Positions 6,655-12,902 of a stretch of 33,125 nucleotides of DNA are shown in pieces; within the stretch, counting starts at the first letter, position 1; each line of letters begins with the position of its first letter. A model generated the notes under the pieces. That model made no database searches and had not been told where the DNA came from. It saw only the letters and a list, made by a program, of their open reading frames with translations. The stretch is from Candidatus Methylomirabilota bacterium (lineage in GTDB: Bacteria; Methylomirabilota; Methylomirabilia; Rokubacteriales; CSP1-6). The stretch covers positions 1 to 33,125 of the forward strand of contig DASYVT010000031.1 in NCBI GenBank assembly GCA_035936835.1, in the 5' to 3' direction. A program made the position numbers and the translations under genes.

Positions 6655-7518
6655 ATGGCCAAGCTGCGCGTGGTGTTGACGGGGGCGGCGGGCTACGTCG
6701 CCCAGCGCATGTTCCCCGAGCTCAGCGAGCGCTGGGACCTGGTGCCCATTGACGTCCGCCCGACCACGCGCGACGGCAAGCCGGTGCCCGGCCTCGTGGT
6801 CGCCGACCTGACCAATCCCGACCGCAGCGCGTACCGGCAGCACTTCAAGGGCGCCGACGCCGTCATCCACTGCGGCTTCGTCAGCGCCCCGGGCCTGGAC
6901 GCGACCACCTGGCAGGACAACGGCGACGCGAAGTTCTGGGCCGAGCACAAGAACGTCGCGCTCGCCTACAACGTGTACCGGACCGCGATCGAGGAGGGCG
7001 TCCGCCGCGTCGTCGTCGCCAGCTCCAACCACGCCGCCGACTATTACGAGCGGCTGATCTGGGCGGGCAAGATGGAGATGGTGACGCCGGACATGCCGCA
7101 CCGGTCGGACAACTGGTACGGCTGGGCCAAGGCCGCCTACGAGCTGCTGGGCTTCGTCTTCGCCACCGGCAAGGTGGAAGGTCGCAAGCTCGAGGTCGTG
7201 CAATGGCGCATCGGCGGCCCGCGTGACGACGACATCGACCAGGTCAAGCCGGGCGACATCAAGGTCATGCACCGCGCGCTCGGCGCCTATCTTTCGCGGC
7301 GCGACCAGCTCCAGCAGGCGATTCGCATGGTCGAGGCGGAGAACATCGCCGACGAGCACGGCGTGCCCTTCCTCGTCGTCTACGGCATCAGCGGCAACAC
7401 GCACCGCTTCTGGAGCATCGCCAACGCGCGCGAGAAGATCGGCTACGAGCCGGAAGACGACAGCCAGGTCAACTTCGCCGACAAGATCGCCGCGATCGCG
7501 CGCGCCGCCAAGCGCTAG
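6655..7518 (+). CDS. NAD-dependent epimerase/dehydratase (extended SDR)
   Basis: A 287-residue extended short-chain dehydrogenase. The N-terminal Rossmann motif is LTGAAGYVA at ~8-16, Asp33 is placed to select NAD(H), and the catalytic Tyr155-x-x-x-Lys159 is in NWYGWAK, with Ser123/Ser124 upstream. Overall it resembles uronate dehydrogenases and NAD-dependent sugar epimerases. It has a GGAGG ribosome-binding site just upstream, 16 nt after the aldo/keto reductase stop, and probably shares its transcript. A role in sugar or sugar-acid oxidation is an inference. Confidence 0.88.
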   Translation: MAKLRVVLTGAAGYVAQRMFPELSERWDLVPIDVRPTTRDGKPVPGLVVADLTNPDRSAYRQHFKGADAVIHCGFVSAPGLDATTWQDNGDAKFWAEHKNVALAYNVYRTAIEEGVRRVVVASSNHAADYYERLIWAGKMEMVTPDMPHRSDNWYGWAKAAYELLGFVFATGKVEGRKLEVVQWRIGGPRDDDIDQVKPGDIKVMHRALGAYLSRRDQLQQAIRMVEAENIADEHGVPFLVVYGISGNTHRFWSIANAREKIGYEPEDDSQVNFADKIAAIARAAKR

Positions 7519-7540
7519 CGGCCGCGCATCGGAGGGCACG

Positions 7541-8323
7541 ATGACGAGCCCGAGCCACCGCGACATGATCCTCGACCAGTTCAGCCGCCAGGCCGTGCAG
7601 TTCTCGACCGCCCCCGGGATCATGGACGAGCAGGCGCTGCGCCAGATCGTCGAGTTCACCGGCGCGGGCCCCCAGGACACCGTCCTCGACGTCGCCTGCG
7701 GCGGCGGCATCATCGTCTGCGCGCTCGCGAAAGTCGTCCGCCACGCGACGGGCATCGATCTCACGCCCGCGATGCTCGAGCGCGCGCGGGCGCTCGCCGC
7801 CGAGAAGAAGCTCACCAACGTCAGCTGGAAGCAGGGCGACGTCCTGCCGCTGCCATACGCCGACGGCTCCTTCTCCCTCGTGACCTCCCGCTTCGCCTTC
7901 CACCACTTCCTCGAGCCTGCGGCCGTGCTCGCCGAGATGAAGCGCGTGTGCGCGCCAGGCGGGAGGGTGGCCGTCATCGACACCGACGCGTCGCCCGACG
8001 TCGCCAAGGCCGCCGAGTTCAACCGGATGGAGAAGCTCCGAGACCCCTCGCACGTGCGCGCCATGCCGCTCACGGAGCTGAAGGGCCTGTTCGCCCCAGC
8101 GGGCCTGCCAGCGCCGCGCGTGAGCGGCTACCGCCTCGAGAGCGACCTGGAGAGCCTCCTCGCGCGCTCGTTCCCGCTGCCCGGCGACGCCGACAAGGTC
8201 CGCGAGATCTTCACCGCCTCGCTCAGCGACGACCGACTCGGCATCCCGCTGGCGCGCAACGGCGAGCGCCTCCGCTACGCCTACCCCGTCGCCATCCTCG
8301 TCGCCGACAAGCCCGCCGCCTAG
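7541..8323 (+). CDS. Class I SAM-dependent methyltransferase (UbiE/Methyltransf_11 type)
   Basis: A 260-residue enzyme. SAM-binding motif I is VLDVACGGGI (~48-57) and motif II contains Asp73 (GIDLTPAML). Later landmarks are GDVLPLPYADGSFSLV, FHHF and the post-motif MKRVCAPGGRVAVID. This is the standard small-molecule methyltransferase fold, close to the ubiquinone/menaquinone UbiE group, but the substrate cannot be assigned. The start is ATG 7541 with a GGAGG site. It is the last gene of the plus-strand group before the lower-density accessory region. Confidence 0.9.
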   Translation: MTSPSHRDMILDQFSRQAVQFSTAPGIMDEQALRQIVEFTGAGPQDTVLDVACGGGIIVCALAKVVRHATGIDLTPAMLERARALAAEKKLTNVSWKQGDVLPLPYADGSFSLVTSRFAFHHFLEPAAVLAEMKRVCAPGGRVAVIDTDASPDVAKAAEFNRMEKLRDPSHVRAMPLTELKGLFAPAGLPAPRVSGYRLESDLESLLARSFPLPGDADKVREIFTASLSDDRLGIPLARNGERLRYAYPVAILVADKPAA

Positions 8324-8793
8324 CGCGACCACCATATCTGCCCAGCTACACCCTTGAGGAGGTCGCGGGAATGGGTCATCCTCCAGATCGTGATTCTCGG
8401 GGCGAATGCCGACACGCAGGTTCTCAATCGGAAGCCCGCCGGCGTCCAAGACCCTGCGGATCTGATGACGACCCTTTGACCCCGCGCCGGGCCCAACACC
8501 GGATACGCAGACCTCGCATATCGAATATCCCAGGTCTGTATAGCAAGGCGCCCGGTAGCCTGTACTCGTCGGCGAAGTGCGCGTTCTTCAATCCTAATCG
8601 CGCCAGAACTATGATGCCGGGCACCGTGTTACGCTGTCGGCACGCGCTTCGTCAGCGGCGCTACGCAGTTCAGCCGAATTCTAGTTTGGCGCTCCAACAG
8701 CTAATGGGGAGGTGATCGTGTATCGGTTCGTGCCCATCCGTACGGTCTGGCGTAACCCAAGTGGTTCAACGCAGGTTCAGGAGGCGCACCCAA
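8324..8793. other. 470-bp gap with no supported gene
   Basis: The region looks lower in GC than its flanks, with none of the long overlapping GC-rich frames seen elsewhere. Minus-strand frames give protein-like short stretches (for example GGLPIENLRVGIRPENHDLE near 8390-8450, and KNAHFADEYRLPGALLYRPG near 8530-8590), but they are in broken frames and I do not recognise them. They may be relics of a degraded gene. No tRNA, repeat array or clear promoter is visible. Confidence 0.4.
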
Positions 8794-9462
8794 ATGAGGG
8801 GCGATCACGGAGTTTCACGACGACACGTTTTGGGTATGGCGATTGCCGCAGGCGGCTTCGCCGTGTCCGGTGCGGTCAGTTCGGTATTCGCCCAGGTGCT
8901 GAAACGGACTCCAGGCGAAATCCTCGGGCCCTTTTACCCCGTCCTCCGGTCGGTGGAGAAAACCGCCGATCTGACTGCCCGATCGGGCAAGCCAGGACGC
9001 GCTGCGGGCCAGGTGATCTATGCCATGGGGCGAGTCGTGAACGTCCAGGGGCAGCCAGTGAAAGGCGCGAGGGTCGAGCTTTGGCAAGCCAATACCCACG
9101 GGCGCTACACCCACCCGAGTGACACGAACCCGGCGCCCCTCGATCCCAACTTCGAGGGCTTCGCCGTTCAGGACACCGATGCCGAGGGCCGTTATCGGTT
9201 TAAGACGATCAAGCCAGGGGCGTATCCGGCTACTGCCAACTGGATGAGGCCGCCTCATCTCCACTTCGACGTGACCGGGAAGATCAACCGAGCGATCACG
9301 CAGATGTATTTCCCCGGGGAGCCGTTGAACGACAAAGATCTGCTCCTGCAGAACATCCGCGCGAACAAGGACAGCCTGATCGCGAAGGTACTGCCCCCGA
9401 CATCGGATGTTGAGCCTGATTCGCTCATCGTGGTTTGGGATATCGTGCTCGACAAGGGGTAA
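8794..9462 (+). CDS. Tat-exported intradiol ring-cleavage dioxygenase (protocatechuate 3,4-dioxygenase-like)
   Basis: A 222-residue protein with a twin-arginine signal (SRRHVLGMAIAAGG, Arg9-Arg10), followed by an intradiol dioxygenase domain. All four non-haem Fe(III) ligands of the family can be placed: Tyr105 (LWQANTHGRYTHPSD), Tyr144 (TIKPGAYPA), His155 and His157 (RPPHLHFDV). Such enzymes cleave catechols between the hydroxyls; this one would act outside the cytoplasm. ATG 8794 has an AGGAGG site; an in-frame GTG at 8761 lengthens the N-terminus without adding anything recognisable. It stands alone, with no second subunit gene. Confidence 0.9.
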   Translation: MRGDHGVSRRHVLGMAIAAGGFAVSGAVSSVFAQVLKRTPGEILGPFYPVLRSVEKTADLTARSGKPGRAAGQVIYAMGRVVNVQGQPVKGARVELWQANTHGRYTHPSDTNPAPLDPNFEGFAVQDTDAEGRYRFKTIKPGAYPATANWMRPPHLHFDVTGKINRAITQMYFPGEPLNDKDLLLQNIRANKDSLIAKVLPPTSDVEPDSLIVVWDIVLDKG

Positions 9463-9508
9463 CGTCTGCGCGCAGCTGACGCCTGGGGCGCCGAACCGTC
9501 AGTTGGAG
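9457..9508 (+). repeat. Possible degenerate attC-like hairpin after the dioxygenase gene
   Basis: GGGTAAC at 9457-9463 and GTTGGAG at 9502-9508 flank an imperfect hairpin (CTGACG 9476-9481 with CGTCAG 9497-9502, inner GCC/GGC). A separate palindrome CTGCGCGCAG lies at 9466-9475. The outer boxes match the integron attC consensus only in part. It could equally be an ordinary intergenic hairpin. Confidence 0.2.
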
Positions 9509-9566
9509 CGACGAGGGATGAGCCCCGGATCGGCCAGATCGACAGTACAACGACGGGAGGATCTGG

Positions 9567-9851
9567 ATGGCTAAGTTAGCAATCGTGGCTACCTTCGAAA
9601 TCGCGCCGGGACAGATCGACGCTTTCTTACCGCTGCTCTTGGCGCACCGAGACCGCTGTCTCAAGGATGAGCCGGGCACGCTTCGCTTCGACATCCTGCG
9701 GCCTGAGAAGAACCTCATGCTGTACGAGGTCTATGACGATGAGGCCGCTTTCCAGGCCCATTGGAACGGCCCGTCTAGTGCCCGATGTCGCGAGGAAGCC
9801 GCAGGAGTGGTGAGTAAGCTCACCTTCATCAGATGCTCGCTTCTGGATTAG
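9567..9851 (+). CDS. Antibiotic biosynthesis monooxygenase (ABM) domain protein
   Basis: A 94-residue single-domain protein of the dimeric alpha/beta-barrel ABM family (YgiN-like quinol monooxygenases). The pattern fits throughout: AIVATFEIAPGQIDAFLPLL, CLKDEPGTLRFDI, LYEVYDDEAAFQAHWNG. Members oxidise quinols or polyketide aromatics without a cofactor. The ATG has a GGGAGG site. Lying 104 bp after a ring-cleaving dioxygenase, it may act on a related aromatic compound. An attC-like site follows directly. Confidence 0.85.
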   Translation: MAKLAIVATFEIAPGQIDAFLPLLLAHRDRCLKDEPGTLRFDILRPEKNLMLYEVYDDEAAFQAHWNGPSSARCREEAAGVVSKLTFIRCSLLD

Positions 9852-9869
9852 CAGGCTCAACTGACCGCG

Positions 9870-9927
9870 CTCTAACCCCGCGCTCGAGCGGCGGCGCTTG
9901 GCGCGCCGCTCACCGCGAACGTTAGGC
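9870..9927 (+). repeat. Integron attC-like recombination site
   Basis: A 58-bp imperfect inverted repeat with the attC architecture. The R''-like box is CTCTAAC (9870-9876) and the R' box is GTTAGGC (9921-9927), the classical GTTRRRY core. Between them GAGCGGC pairs with GCCGCTC and GCGC with GCGC around a TTG loop, leaving one unpaired G on one arm, like the extrahelical base that sets attC strand polarity. It lies between two small genes and ends 22 nt before the next ATG, as in gene cassettes. No integron integrase lies in the window. Confidence 0.6.
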
Positions 9928-9949
9928 CGTCCTGCGAGGAGGAAGCGAG

Positions 9950-10339
9950 ATGTCTCAACAGCAGTCAGTTTCGGCAGAAACGGCTAAGGCCATCCTCGAT
10001 GCCTTCAATGCTCACGATCTGGACGCGATCATGCAGTTCTTTGCCGACGATTGTTCCTTGGATATGCCCCGCGGGCCCGATCCGTGGGGACAGCGCTTTG
10101 TGGGCAAGGCCGCCGTCAGAGAGGGATTAGCGACGCGCTTCAAGGGGCTCCCGGACGTGCACTATAGCGACGACCGTCATTGGATCAGTGGAAACATGGT
10201 GATTTCGGAGTGGTTACTGACGGGTACCACGCCGGATGGGGTCCCGGTCAGAGTTCGCGGATGCGATCACTACGAATTCCGAGACGCGAAGGTCGTTCGG
10301 AAGGACTCGTATTGGAAGATCGTCGAGAAGCCACGGTGA
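9950..10339 (+). CDS. SnoaL-like / NTF2-fold protein
   Basis: A 129-residue protein with the SnoaL-like pattern: AILDAFNAHDLDAIMQFFADDCSL at the N-terminus, then GKAAVREGLATRF, ISEWLLTGTTPDG and a closing HYEFRDAKVVRKDSYWKI. The fold is used by small isomerases, hydrolases and cyclases, so the reaction cannot be named. It has a GAGGAGG site and follows the attC-like site, so it may be a mobile-cassette gene. Just after its stop GTCTAAC (10346-10352) resembles another attC left box, but no matching right box is visible. Confidence 0.82.
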   Translation: MSQQQSVSAETAKAILDAFNAHDLDAIMQFFADDCSLDMPRGPDPWGQRFVGKAAVREGLATRFKGLPDVHYSDDRHWISGNMVISEWLLTGTTPDGVPVRVRGCDHYEFRDAKVVRKDSYWKIVEKPR

Positions 10340-10392
10340 GGTCGGGTCTAACTTCAGCTTGCAGCGGCCGGCGCCTCCGGGGAGTGGGATCA

Positions 10393-10474
10393 GGTCTTGC
10401 AATCCGACATCAGATCCCGGCACATGATCGCCCGCCACGGCCGGGTCTGACGAGCAATGTATGAATGCAAGACC
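10393..10474. repeat. 9-bp perfect inverted repeat in the gap before the toxin gene
   Basis: GGTCTTGCA at 10393-10401 and TGCAAGACC at 10466-10474 are exact reverse complements with 64 nt between them. They sit in the ~200-bp gap between the SnoaL-like gene and the toxin promoter. A partial direct repeat (GCCACGG followed by GGGTCTAAC or GGGTCTGAC) overlaps this gap. They may be recombination scars or an operator; the function is unknown. Confidence 0.35.
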
Positions 10475-10501
10475 GGACCCAGATCTCCGCAGCGATCGAG
10501 C

Positions 10502-10530
10502 TTGACCCGAGCAGAAAGTCTGGCTATACT
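10502..10530 (+). promoter_or_regulatory. Near-consensus sigma-70 promoter of the toxin-antitoxin pair
   Basis: TTGACC (10502-10507), a 17-nt spacer and TATACT (10525-10530) form the best promoter match in the window. The start codon at 10540 is only 9 nt after the -10 box, so transcription should begin at or within a few bases of the ATG, giving a leaderless or nearly leaderless mRNA. Confidence 0.65.
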
Positions 10531-10539
10531 CTGGCTAGA

Positions 10540-10851
10540 ATGTGGTATGAGGTCGTCTTGGCCCCTGAGGCGGCGAGAGGCTTCAGATCTCTTCCGGCCT
10601 ACCGTCGGGCTGAAGTACGGGACGCCCTCGAGCGGCACTTGCGCCACGAGCCCACCCGGGTGAGCAAGAGCCGGATCAAACGCCTGCGGGGCTTGAGTCG
10701 CCCCCAGTTTCGTCTCCGGGTTGGAGAGGTGAGGGTGTTCTATGACGTCACGCGCGAAGCGGTTGAAGTCCTCGCCATCGTCACGAAAGCTGAAGCCGCG
10801 CGTTGGCTTACCGACCGCGGGACGCCGGGTGCGCCAGGTGGCACTGGCTGA
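10540..10851 (+). CDS. Type II toxin, RelE/ParE family
   Basis: A 103-residue small basic protein with the RelE/ParE fold pattern: WYEVVLAPEAARGFRSLP, then RAEVRDALERHL, the strand KSRIKRLRGLSRPQFRLRVG, and EVRVFYDVTREAVEVLAIV. RelE-like members cleave mRNA at the ribosome; ParE-like members poison gyrase. The sequence alone does not decide between them. The start at ATG 10540 is set by the family N-terminus and the promoter just upstream. The 3' end overlaps the antitoxin gene by 23 nt, so the order is toxin first. Confidence 0.85.
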   Translation: MWYEVVLAPEAARGFRSLPAYRRAEVRDALERHLRHEPTRVSKSRIKRLRGLSRPQFRLRVGEVRVFYDVTREAVEVLAIVTKAEAARWLTDRGTPGAPGGTG

Positions 10852-11071
10852 GGTCAAGGACGACCTCTCGCGATTCCTGCGCCTGGCGGAGTCCGAGGAG
10901 ATCCTCATCACGCGCCACGGAAGGCCTGCCGGCGTCCTGATCGGATTCGAAACCGAGGATGACTGGTTCGACTATCGGTTGGAGCATCATCCGGAGTTCC
11001 TCCGGCGAGTCGTGGAAGCCCGGGCAGCCTTCAGGAGTGGACGCGGTGTCCGGCTCGAGGATCTCCCGTGA
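10829..11071 (+). CDS. Type II antitoxin, Phd/YefM family
   Basis: About 80 residues starting at GTG 10829. The Phd/YefM DNA-binding N-terminus is recognisable: VALAEVKDDLSRFLRLAESEE followed by ILITRHGRPAGVLIG. The C-terminus (WFDYRLEHHPEFLRRVVEAR) is the likely toxin-wrapping part. It would neutralise the RelE/ParE protein encoded just upstream and probably bind the promoter at 10502-10530 as an autorepressor. The frame is open further upstream inside the toxin gene, but there is no homology there. The start is inferred from family length. Confidence 0.82.
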   Translation: MRQVALAEVKDDLSRFLRLAESEEILITRHGRPAGVLIGFETEDDWFDYRLEHHPEFLRRVVEARAAFRSGRGVRLEDLP

Positions 11072-11101
11072 TGACTGACAGCGCGAGCTGGTAGGCCCGG
11101 C

Positions 11102-11875
11102 TCACTCGCCGCGGAAGACCGGCCGGCGCTTCTCCAGCATGGCGCGGCGGCCCTCGCTGGCGTCGGCGCTCTGGCGGGCGCGCGCCGACGCCTCGTCGAG
11201 GTCGGCGTGGGCGATGCCCTCGCGCAGCGACACGGAGCGGAGGATCGTCGCCTTGATTCCCGCAAGCGCCAGCGGCGCGTTGCGGGCGATGCTTTGCGCC
11301 AGCTGAGACGTCACCGATTCCAGCTCCCCCGCCGCCACGACCTGGTGGACCATGCCGATCTCCAACGCGCGCCGCGCATCTATCGGCTGGCCGGTGAAGA
11401 GAAGATGCCGCGTGTGGGCGGGCCCGATGATCTCGACCAGCTTCTGCCCGAGCGGGAAGGGGACGACGAGGCCGATCCGCGCCAGTGGCATGCCGAAGCG
11501 CGCCACTTCCGAGGCGACGCGCAGGTCGCAGTGAAGGGCCAGCTCGCAGCCGCCCGCGATGGCGTCGCCGTGGACCATGGCGATGGTCGGGTGTCTCGAG
11601 CGCTCGACGCGCTGGAGGACCTCGATGACGCCGCTCTCGGGATCACCCGGAACGCCGCGCCGCTCCTCCATCTCCTTGAGGTCCATGCCGGAGCAGAAGG
11701 CGGGGCCGCCGCCGCGGACGACCACCACGCGCACGTCGCGGTTGGCGTCCAGCTCCTCGAAGCGGGCGCGAAGCGCGGCGAGCAGCGCGGTGTTCATGGC
11801 ATTGCGCTGGCCGGGGCGGTTGAGCGTGACGGTGGCGACGCCGCCGTCCACGGCACAGAGGACCTCGTCTGACAT
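11102..11875 (-). CDS. Enoyl-CoA hydratase/isomerase (crotonase) family protein
   Basis: A 257-residue crotonase-fold protein. The oxyanion-hole segments are present (AFCSGMDL ~59-66 and AIAGGCELALHCDLR ~105-119). Glu111 matches the first catalytic glutamate of enoyl-CoA hydratase (Glu144 in the rat enzyme). The residue 20 positions later, where the second glutamate sits, is Leu131 (FGMPLARIG). It may therefore be an isomerase, thioesterase or other crotonase rather than a true hydratase. The start is ATG 11875; a longer open frame upstream overlaps the LLM gene. It follows that gene on the same strand after 10 nt. Confidence 0.9.
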   Translation of the reverse strand: MSDEVLCAVDGGVATVTLNRPGQRNAMNTALLAALRARFEELDANRDVRVVVVRGGGPAFCSGMDLKEMEERRGVPGDPESGVIEVLQRVERSRHPTIAMVHGDAIAGGCELALHCDLRVASEVARFGMPLARIGLVVPFPLGQKLVEIIGPAHTRHLLFTGQPIDARRALEIGMVHQVVAAGELESVTSQLAQSIARNAPLALAGIKATILRSVSLREGIAHADLDEASARARQSADASEGRRAMLEKRRPVFRGE

Positions 11876-11885
11876 TGCGCGTCTC

Positions 11886-12902
11886 CTAGGAGCGTGCGCC
11901 TGGCGCCAGCCCGCGCATGGCGTCGAGCACGAGCGCGCGGCGCCGAGCGGGATCGGGGTCGTTGGTCTGCAACCCCAGGAAGGCCGTGTCGATACCCTGG
12001 TCGAAATAGCGTTGCACGCGCGCGCGTATCGTAGGCAGGGGACCGCGGACGATGAGCTCGTCGACGACGGTCGACGGAATGGCCGCGACAGCGCCCTTGC
12101 GGTCCCCGGCCGCCCAGGCATCCCACATCGGCTGGAGCGCAGGCGTGCGGCCGAGCCATTCCTGGTACGCGCGATATACCGGCACGTTCAGGTACGCGGC
12201 GATGTTCCGCCTGATGACCTGGTCGGACTCGGGGCCGAGCGTGTCCAGGTTGACGAGGAGACGGGCGGTGATCTCGATGGCCTCAGGGTCGCGGCCGGCC
12301 TTCTCTGCGGCCTCGCGGACGATCGCCACTGCCTTCGGGACGTCCTCGGGCGAGTTCCAGTTGAGGATGACGCCGTCGCCGACTTCGCCGGCGACCTTGA
12401 GCATGCCGGGACGCAGCGCCGCGATGTAGATGGGCACGGGCGGGTTGGGCGGCTTCGTCAGGCGGAAGCCGTCCACCGAGATGGTCTGGCCTTTGAAGAC
12501 GACGCGCTCGCCGGCGAGCGCCACGCGGAGGAACTGCGCCATCTCGCGCACGCGCGTGGCGGGCTTGGTGAAGACGCCGCCGTTCCAGGACTCGACGATG
12601 GGCTGCGAGCCCGAGCCGATGCCGAGGACGAAGCGCCCCGGGGCGAGGTCCGCGAGCCCGGCGGCAGTGGACGCGAGCGTCGCGGGCCCTCGCGTGTAGA
12701 CGTTGGCGATCGCGATGCCGAGCCGCATGCTCGAAGTGGCGGCGCCGATCGCGGCCAGCGGCGTGAAGCCGTCCACGCCGTCCACCTCGAAGGACCACGC
12801 ATCCGTATAGCCCAGCCCCTCCGCCTCTCGGGCGATGTCGCCCAGCTCGGCGATCGAAAAGCCTTCCATCGGCACCGACAGCGACCACCGCTTTCTGGCC
12901 AT
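11886..12902 (-). CDS. LLM-class (luciferase-like) F420-dependent oxidoreductase
   Basis: A 338-residue (alpha/beta)8 luciferase-like protein. Landmarks are the N-terminal ELGDIAREAEGLGYTDAWSF, the AIANVYTRGPATLA strand-helix, the LGIGSGSQPIVESWNG segment, and VPIYIAALRPGMLKVAGEVG typical of F420-dependent (MER-like) members. It probably uses F420 or FMN to reduce or oxidise a small organic or CoA-bound substrate. The start is ATG 12902. The gene diverges from the acyl-CoA dehydrogenase genes across a 59-bp gap and is co-directional with the crotonase gene. Confidence 0.9.
   Translation of the reverse strand: MARKRWSLSVPMEGFSIAELGDIAREAEGLGYTDAWSFEVDGVDGFTPLAAIGAATSSMRLGIAIANVYTRGPATLASTAAGLADLAPGRFVLGIGSGSQPIVESWNGGVFTKPATRVREMAQFLRVALAGERVVFKGQTISVDGFRLTKPPNPPVPIYIAALRPGMLKVAGEVGDGVILNWNSPEDVPKAVAIVREAAEKAGRDPEAIEITARLLVNLDTLGPESDQVIRRNIAAYLNVPVYRAYQEWLGRTPALQPMWDAWAAGDRKGAVAAIPSTVVDELIVRGPLPTIRARVQRYFDQGIDTAFLGLQTNDPDPARRRALVLDAMRGLAPGARS

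Follow-up and report, generated by a model that had tools for sequence, protein, structure and literature searches.

The window analysed here is the whole of contig C31 (33,125 nucleotides, ~70% GC) of a 4.1 Mb draft genome in 236 contigs from the Rokubacteriales. Within it, a methyltransferase gene (7541..8323, + strand), conserved in congeners, and a gene on the opposite strand (11102..12121), conserved in the congeneric genomes G001 and G003, are the left and right chromosomal flanks of a variable stretch whose features all lie on the + strand. These include an intradiol dioxygenase gene of the protocatechuate 3,4-dioxygenase-like kind (8761..9462; PF00775, 4.3e-34; TIGR02422 at 160.5 bits, under its cut-off), an antibiotic biosynthesis monooxygenase (ABM) domain gene (9567..9851; PF03992), an attC-like hairpin (9870..9927) and a SnoaL-like gene (9950..10339; PF12680). 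The ABM stop codon lies 18 nt before the left box of the hairpin, R'', and the SnoaL start codon 22 nt after the right box, R'. Downstream of the SnoaL-like gene, a truncated second attC (10346..10373) carries an R'' box, GTCTAAC, and a left arm, with the right arm missing. A putative toxin (10540-10851), which gave no match in Pfam, NCBIfam or PADLOC, and a Phd-family antitoxin (10742-11071) form a pair (10540..11071) at the right edge of the array.

Integron attC sites are delimited by an R' box of consensus GTTRRRY and an R'' box of consensus RYYYAAC. From the letters of the window, the sequence-only reading had described 9870-9927 as a single attC-like hairpin with an exact GTTAGGC core box, paired arms and one unpaired G, and we found its coordinates and pairings to be exact. 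The R' box (GTTAGGC, 9921-9927) agrees fully with the consensus, while the R'' box (CTCTAAC, 9870-9876) matches it at 6 of 7 positions, the deviation being a non-purine, C, at the first base. The left arm consists of a stem segment (9879-9884), a bulged C9885, a second segment (9886-9892), a bulged G9893 (or G9894) and a third segment (9894-9897); a 3-nt terminal loop, TTG (9898-9900), leads into the right arm (9901-9917), which a spacer (9918-9920) separates from R'. GAGCGGC (9886-9892) pairs with GCCGCTC (9905-9911), and GCGC (9894-9897) with GCGC (9901-9904). Three further elements were absent from that reading: an additional stem formed by CGCG (9879-9882) with CGCG (9914-9917) and by T9884 with A9912, within which C9883 and C9913 are unpaired; a second bulge, C9885, located like G9893 on the R''-L'' arm, with 7 bp between the two; and a central spacer that is asymmetric and unpaired (CC versus AAC).

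This layout is that of the attC sites of chromosomal integrons (59-base elements), which share the R'' and R' boxes, the unpaired spacer, the two extrahelical bases of the left arm, the 3-nt terminal structure and a position between co-directional genes. The parts of PMC2727003 available to us describe an imperfect hairpin with an unpaired central spacer, extrahelical bases on the R''-L'' arm, the first and second separated by 6-8 nt, and a terminal structure of at least 3 nt. The present site differs in an R'' box that begins with C and in its short length, 58 nt, and it is known from sequence alone.

Single-strand folding was the check proposed in the sequence-only reading. In DNA folding of a 62-mer, the bottom strand reached -24.0 kcal/mol (z -3.0; 0/200 shuffles as good) and the top strand -20.8 kcal/mol (z -1.9; 7/200 shuffles as good); for a 76-mer, 2/200 shuffles folded as well on the bottom strand and 18/200 on the top strand. 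Motif searches were weak as tests against chance. A scan that combined motif and fold gave a match in 6 of 200 first-order simulated windows, compared to one match in the real window, and the bare box pattern CTAAC..CGTTAG was found four times in the genome versus seven times for its reversed control. A scanner based on box letters gave 19 strand-wise matches in six sources (106 kb) against one in the reversed sequences, but such scanners proved too strict, one version missing the window site and another all three matches that were later reported at the same locus of G001 (L048). A transcriptional terminator at 9870-9927 was rejected, no T run being present downstream, and an Rfam search of 7-12 kb yielded no family at gathering score and a single sub-threshold match, taken as chance.

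Because chance tests relying on motifs were weak, we aligned 14 other attC sites and built from them a covariance model, R1, from which 9870-9927 was left out. Eight of the training sites belong to the same genome, two to the corresponding locus of congeners, and the remaining four to named records (loci L061, L062 and L065). The training set is not fully independent of the site under study, since three of the own-genome sites (on contigs C71, C124 and C147) had been retrieved with a box pattern drawn from 9870-9927 itself and two are the congeneric sites of the same locus. Within the 14 sites, 89.4% of cells were paired (shuffle mean 72.7%) and 52 cells were changed on both sides (shuffle mean 20.1), with 0/500 shuffles as high in either case, and 13 pairs displayed a change on both sides (10.2 in shuffles; 12/500 as high). 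Overall, none of the 500 shuffles was as high on four of five measures, and 12 were on the fifth.

R1 matched 9870-9927 over its full length with 39.7 bits (E 6.3e-8 within the window), and the opposite strand scored 18.2 bits, which makes the orientation of the site clear. The next independent place in the window had an E value of 0.039. A run of R1 across 39 loci, some of them overlapping and 173 kb in all, returned five rows at E <= 0.1. These correspond to four places: 9870-9927 (on both strands) and, at the corresponding locus, two sites in G001 and a single one in G003; half of the four had served as training sites. No other match at this threshold was seen in the 39 loci. The attC-like reading of 9870-9927 is thus upheld by a model built without the site, as well as by the integrase gene and the homology break described below. 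The word 'single' is right as far as complete sites of the window are concerned, but not in view of the truncated site at 10346-10373 and of many others in the genome. Between the dioxygenase and ABM genes, no attC was found by eye or with R1, so that the two genes probably constitute one cassette.

In order to locate the cassette boundary, we relied on homologues of the SnoaL-like protein, which were detected at 79-90% identity in eight other genomes among the 60 of the order that were searched, with an additional one, cut by a contig end, at 86%. When compared to window positions 9401-11100, the locus from another genus (L172) aligns at 9921-10372 only, and that on a different contig of the congener G001 (L173) at 9920-10342 and 10350-10373. 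In these two of the nine relatives, DNA homology to the SnoaL cassette therefore starts at the GTTAG of the R' box (9920/9921); the other seven matches begin at 9938-9997, short of the box, and are silent on the boundary. The part of the attC that precedes G9921 is not shared between the window and L172 or L173, as expected for a crossover at G^TT, and the predicted crossover point of the site lies between G9921 and T9922. At the other end, the L172 match stops in the left arm of the second attC, where L172 itself has a complete R1 match (49.6 bits); after the SnoaL-like gene, the window shows GTCTAAC followed by the left arm and diverges from L172 thereafter. In L173, R1 has a complete attC match (33.9 bits) whose left arm is identical to 10350-10373 at 23/24 nt.

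In seven of the nine loci (L172, L174-L178 and L180), the SnoaL gene adjoins an R1 match on the same strand (22.3 to 49.6 bits, E <= 0.0012), some of these matches being weak, at 22-25 bits. Matches are present on both sides of the gene in three loci (L175, L176 and L178), and in L173 and L179 R1 detected no adjacent attC. Upstream of the SnoaL gene in L173 (about 1430-1485), short repeated units resembling core boxes, GTTAGACC and ATTAGACC, are found, with no full attC match adjoining the gene. Conserved surroundings with no cassette boundary, the outcome named in advance as one that would speak against an attC, were thus looked for, and the opposite was observed: homology breaks at the GTT of R' in both L172 and L173, and the congeners G001 and G003 hold other genes and other attC sites at the locus. 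As judged from these alignments, 9870-9927 is the mark of a cassette boundary. Movement of the upstream cassette is unproven, since a search of the order at E <= 1e-15 turned up no relative of the ABM gene in any of 59 other genomes.

Four congeners were compared at the chromosomal locus, of which two, G001 and G003, keep both flanks. G002 was uninformative, its contig ending 423 bases past the methyltransferase match, as was G004, in which 3.5 kb beyond the methyltransferase match bear no match to the window. Against window positions 7300-12400, G001 aligns at 7310-8680 (90.7% identity) and 10687-12400 (90.4%), with nothing in between, the stretch without match including the dioxygenase gene; G003 aligns in pieces over 7310-8393, and then from 11098 on. 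The replaced stretch of G001 carries three R1 matches (69.2, 44.5 and 19.5 bits, the last, a weak one, with E 0.013) and other genes, including a SIR2-like gene, and that of G003 has one R1 match (50.3 bits), a gene weakly similar to PIN domains and an ABC substrate-binding gene. All three genomes with both flanks therefore harbour attC at this place, and their gene content differs. On the left, homology to G001 ends at 8681..8690, where the window reads G8684 followed by TTTGGC and G001 reads C followed by TTAGCG; the position of this edge is suggestive of a cassette start, although it is not proof. On the right, the homology of G001 (L048, 5178-5564) begins inside the putative toxin gene, with the antitoxin kept, and in G003 it returns only past the toxin/antitoxin pair. 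The locus offers a natural setting in which to compare the cassettes carried at one fixed position of the chromosome.

The contig carries no intI match and hence does not hold a complete integron, which has intI and attI in cis. We searched the genome with TIGR02249, and none of the 10 matches that reached E <= 0.001 lay on C31. A full integron integrase (357 aa with the start chosen here; 460 bits versus a cut-off of 265) is encoded on contig C123, followed by at least four attC sites in the same orientation, and weaker matches fell on other contigs. In 14 control genomes, all gave a match at E 0.001, with none above the cut-off and none at E 1e-60. R1 matched at least 28 places of the genome, spread over 12 contigs, at E <= 3.5e-4, among them 9870-9927 and seven training sites; these counts are lower bounds, 150 of 9200 candidates having been scored and one training site, C71:11214-11274, being missing. 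The score of 9870-9927 is below those of 21 other places in the genome, seven of which are training sites.

The window array resembles a CALIN (cluster of attC sites lacking integron integrase) in that attC and cassettes are found on a contig without an integrase match. According to the portion of PMC9024848 consulted, IntegronFinder 2.0 by default requires at least two attC sites for a CALIN; the window has one complete and one truncated site, one short of two complete ones. At this locus, G001 carries three R1 matches, of which one is weak. The C123 integron of the same genome has integrase and array in cis, unlike the window array, but its attC sites share the arm consensus of R1, and the gene of its second cassette appears SnoaL-like by eye, with a sub-threshold TIGR02246 match only.

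Taken together, the region 9870-9927 has R' and R'' boxes with a single letter off consensus, an imperfect bulged hairpin, a covariance match and a cassette boundary. We consider it very likely, from the sequence comparisons, that it represents a genuine attC that joins an upstream dioxygenase and ABM cassette to the SnoaL cassette, within a small chromosomal array whose contig has no integrase match and whose second attC has lost its right half. The site is of a known gene-shuffling type, and what is new is this example. In integrons generally, folding of the bottom strand into a hairpin, binding by the integrase, cleavage in R' and exchange with attI or attC are established. By analogy, the bottom strand of the present site, when single-stranded, would fold into the hairpin, and an integrase encoded elsewhere in the genome would bind the R and L boxes in their paired form, along with the bulged bases. 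It would then cut the bottom strand in R' (G^TT on the top strand), and the cut end could be joined to an attI or a further attC, which would let cassettes leave or enter at 9921. With no integrase match on the contig, action in trans would be needed, and the array is probably served by an integrase located elsewhere in the genome. We infer that the site is recognized by the C123 integrase acting in trans, and it may still function.

A sizeable minority possibility is that the site is an attC by descent in a decaying array and is no longer recombined. The next attC is truncated, which suggests that the array is partly decayed; the R'' box and one stem pair deviate from consensus, the R1 score lies in the lower part of the range of the genome, and the contig is without an integrase match. 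Against such decay, the site retains an intact R' box together with its two bulges and its spacer, folding is better for the bottom strand than for the top, and the genome encodes a full integrase. Far less probable is that the array belongs to one end of the main C123 integron and was misassembled or misbinned onto C31: the genome is a draft in 236 contigs, and attC repeats complicate assembly, as noted in the consulted portion of PMC9024848, but the array is located inside one 33 kb contig and both flanks are as in G001 at ~90% identity. Finally, a chance or unrelated palindrome (a terminator or REP-like element) between the ABM and SnoaL genes is the least credible reading, since, although GC-rich hairpins are expected at ~70% GC, motif-level matches arise in simulated windows, the bare box pattern does not exceed its control and 18/200 shuffles of the 76-mer fold as well on the top strand, the R1 match, the homology break at GTT, the attC sites that congeners carry at this locus, the lack of a downstream T run and the absence of an Rfam family at gathering score in 7-12 kb all argue against it.

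For a genuine attC in this array, the comparison with congeners raises the tentative idea, which we would not favour over its opposite, that the locus between the methyltransferase gene and the gene at 11102-12121 could be a standing satellite platform for cassettes, fixed in place across the genus, with its cassettes replaced, no integrase of its own and service in trans. If true, one integrase, or a few, would serve several dispersed cassette arrays in bacteria such as these Rokubacteriales. In G001, the SIR2-like gene (L048 3247-4569; PF13289, with a weak PADLOC Aga_SIR2 match) adjoins attC matches, and it is possible that it is a defence cassette.

Cassette systems look widespread in the lineage: of 40 genomes, which include the present one and extend to other families of the class, 39 gave R1 matches at E <= 1e-4 (in a run without negative-control genomes), and an integron integrase was present in 16 at E <= 1e-60, or in 14 above the family cut-off. 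In the open-access literature searched, we found no paper dedicated, as judged by title and start of abstract, to integrons of Rokubacteria or Methylomirabilota, and none naming SnoaL together with integrons and gene cassettes, and Rokubacteria were absent among the matches listed by a wider literature search. Support for novelty is weak, since subscription papers were mostly outside the scope of these searches. The present site is an attC confirmed from raw sequence in a Rokubacteriales lineage whose integrons seem little described.

Among the best 80 of 556 loci in named genomes, from which near-identical records may be absent, the closest relatives of the C123 integrase are those of Candidatus Rokubacteria GWC2_70_16 (79% identity) and of an Acidobacteria bin (also 79%, but along a shorter alignment), and that of a Rokuibacteriota bin comes next (73%). 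In the C123 integron (L009 9394-15102 of genome G000), the integrase is co-directional with the array and the 3' end of intI adjoins the cassettes, and intI and attC are likewise on the same strand in L061, from GWC2_70_16. Inverted integrases are described, in the part of PMC8352920 seen, as a sub-clade of the soil/freshwater clade. The contig behind L062 (QHWF01000814.1), labelled Acidobacteria gp6, encodes an integrase 79% identical to that of C123 and has attC sites that fit the same alignment; it was possibly misbinned or transferred.
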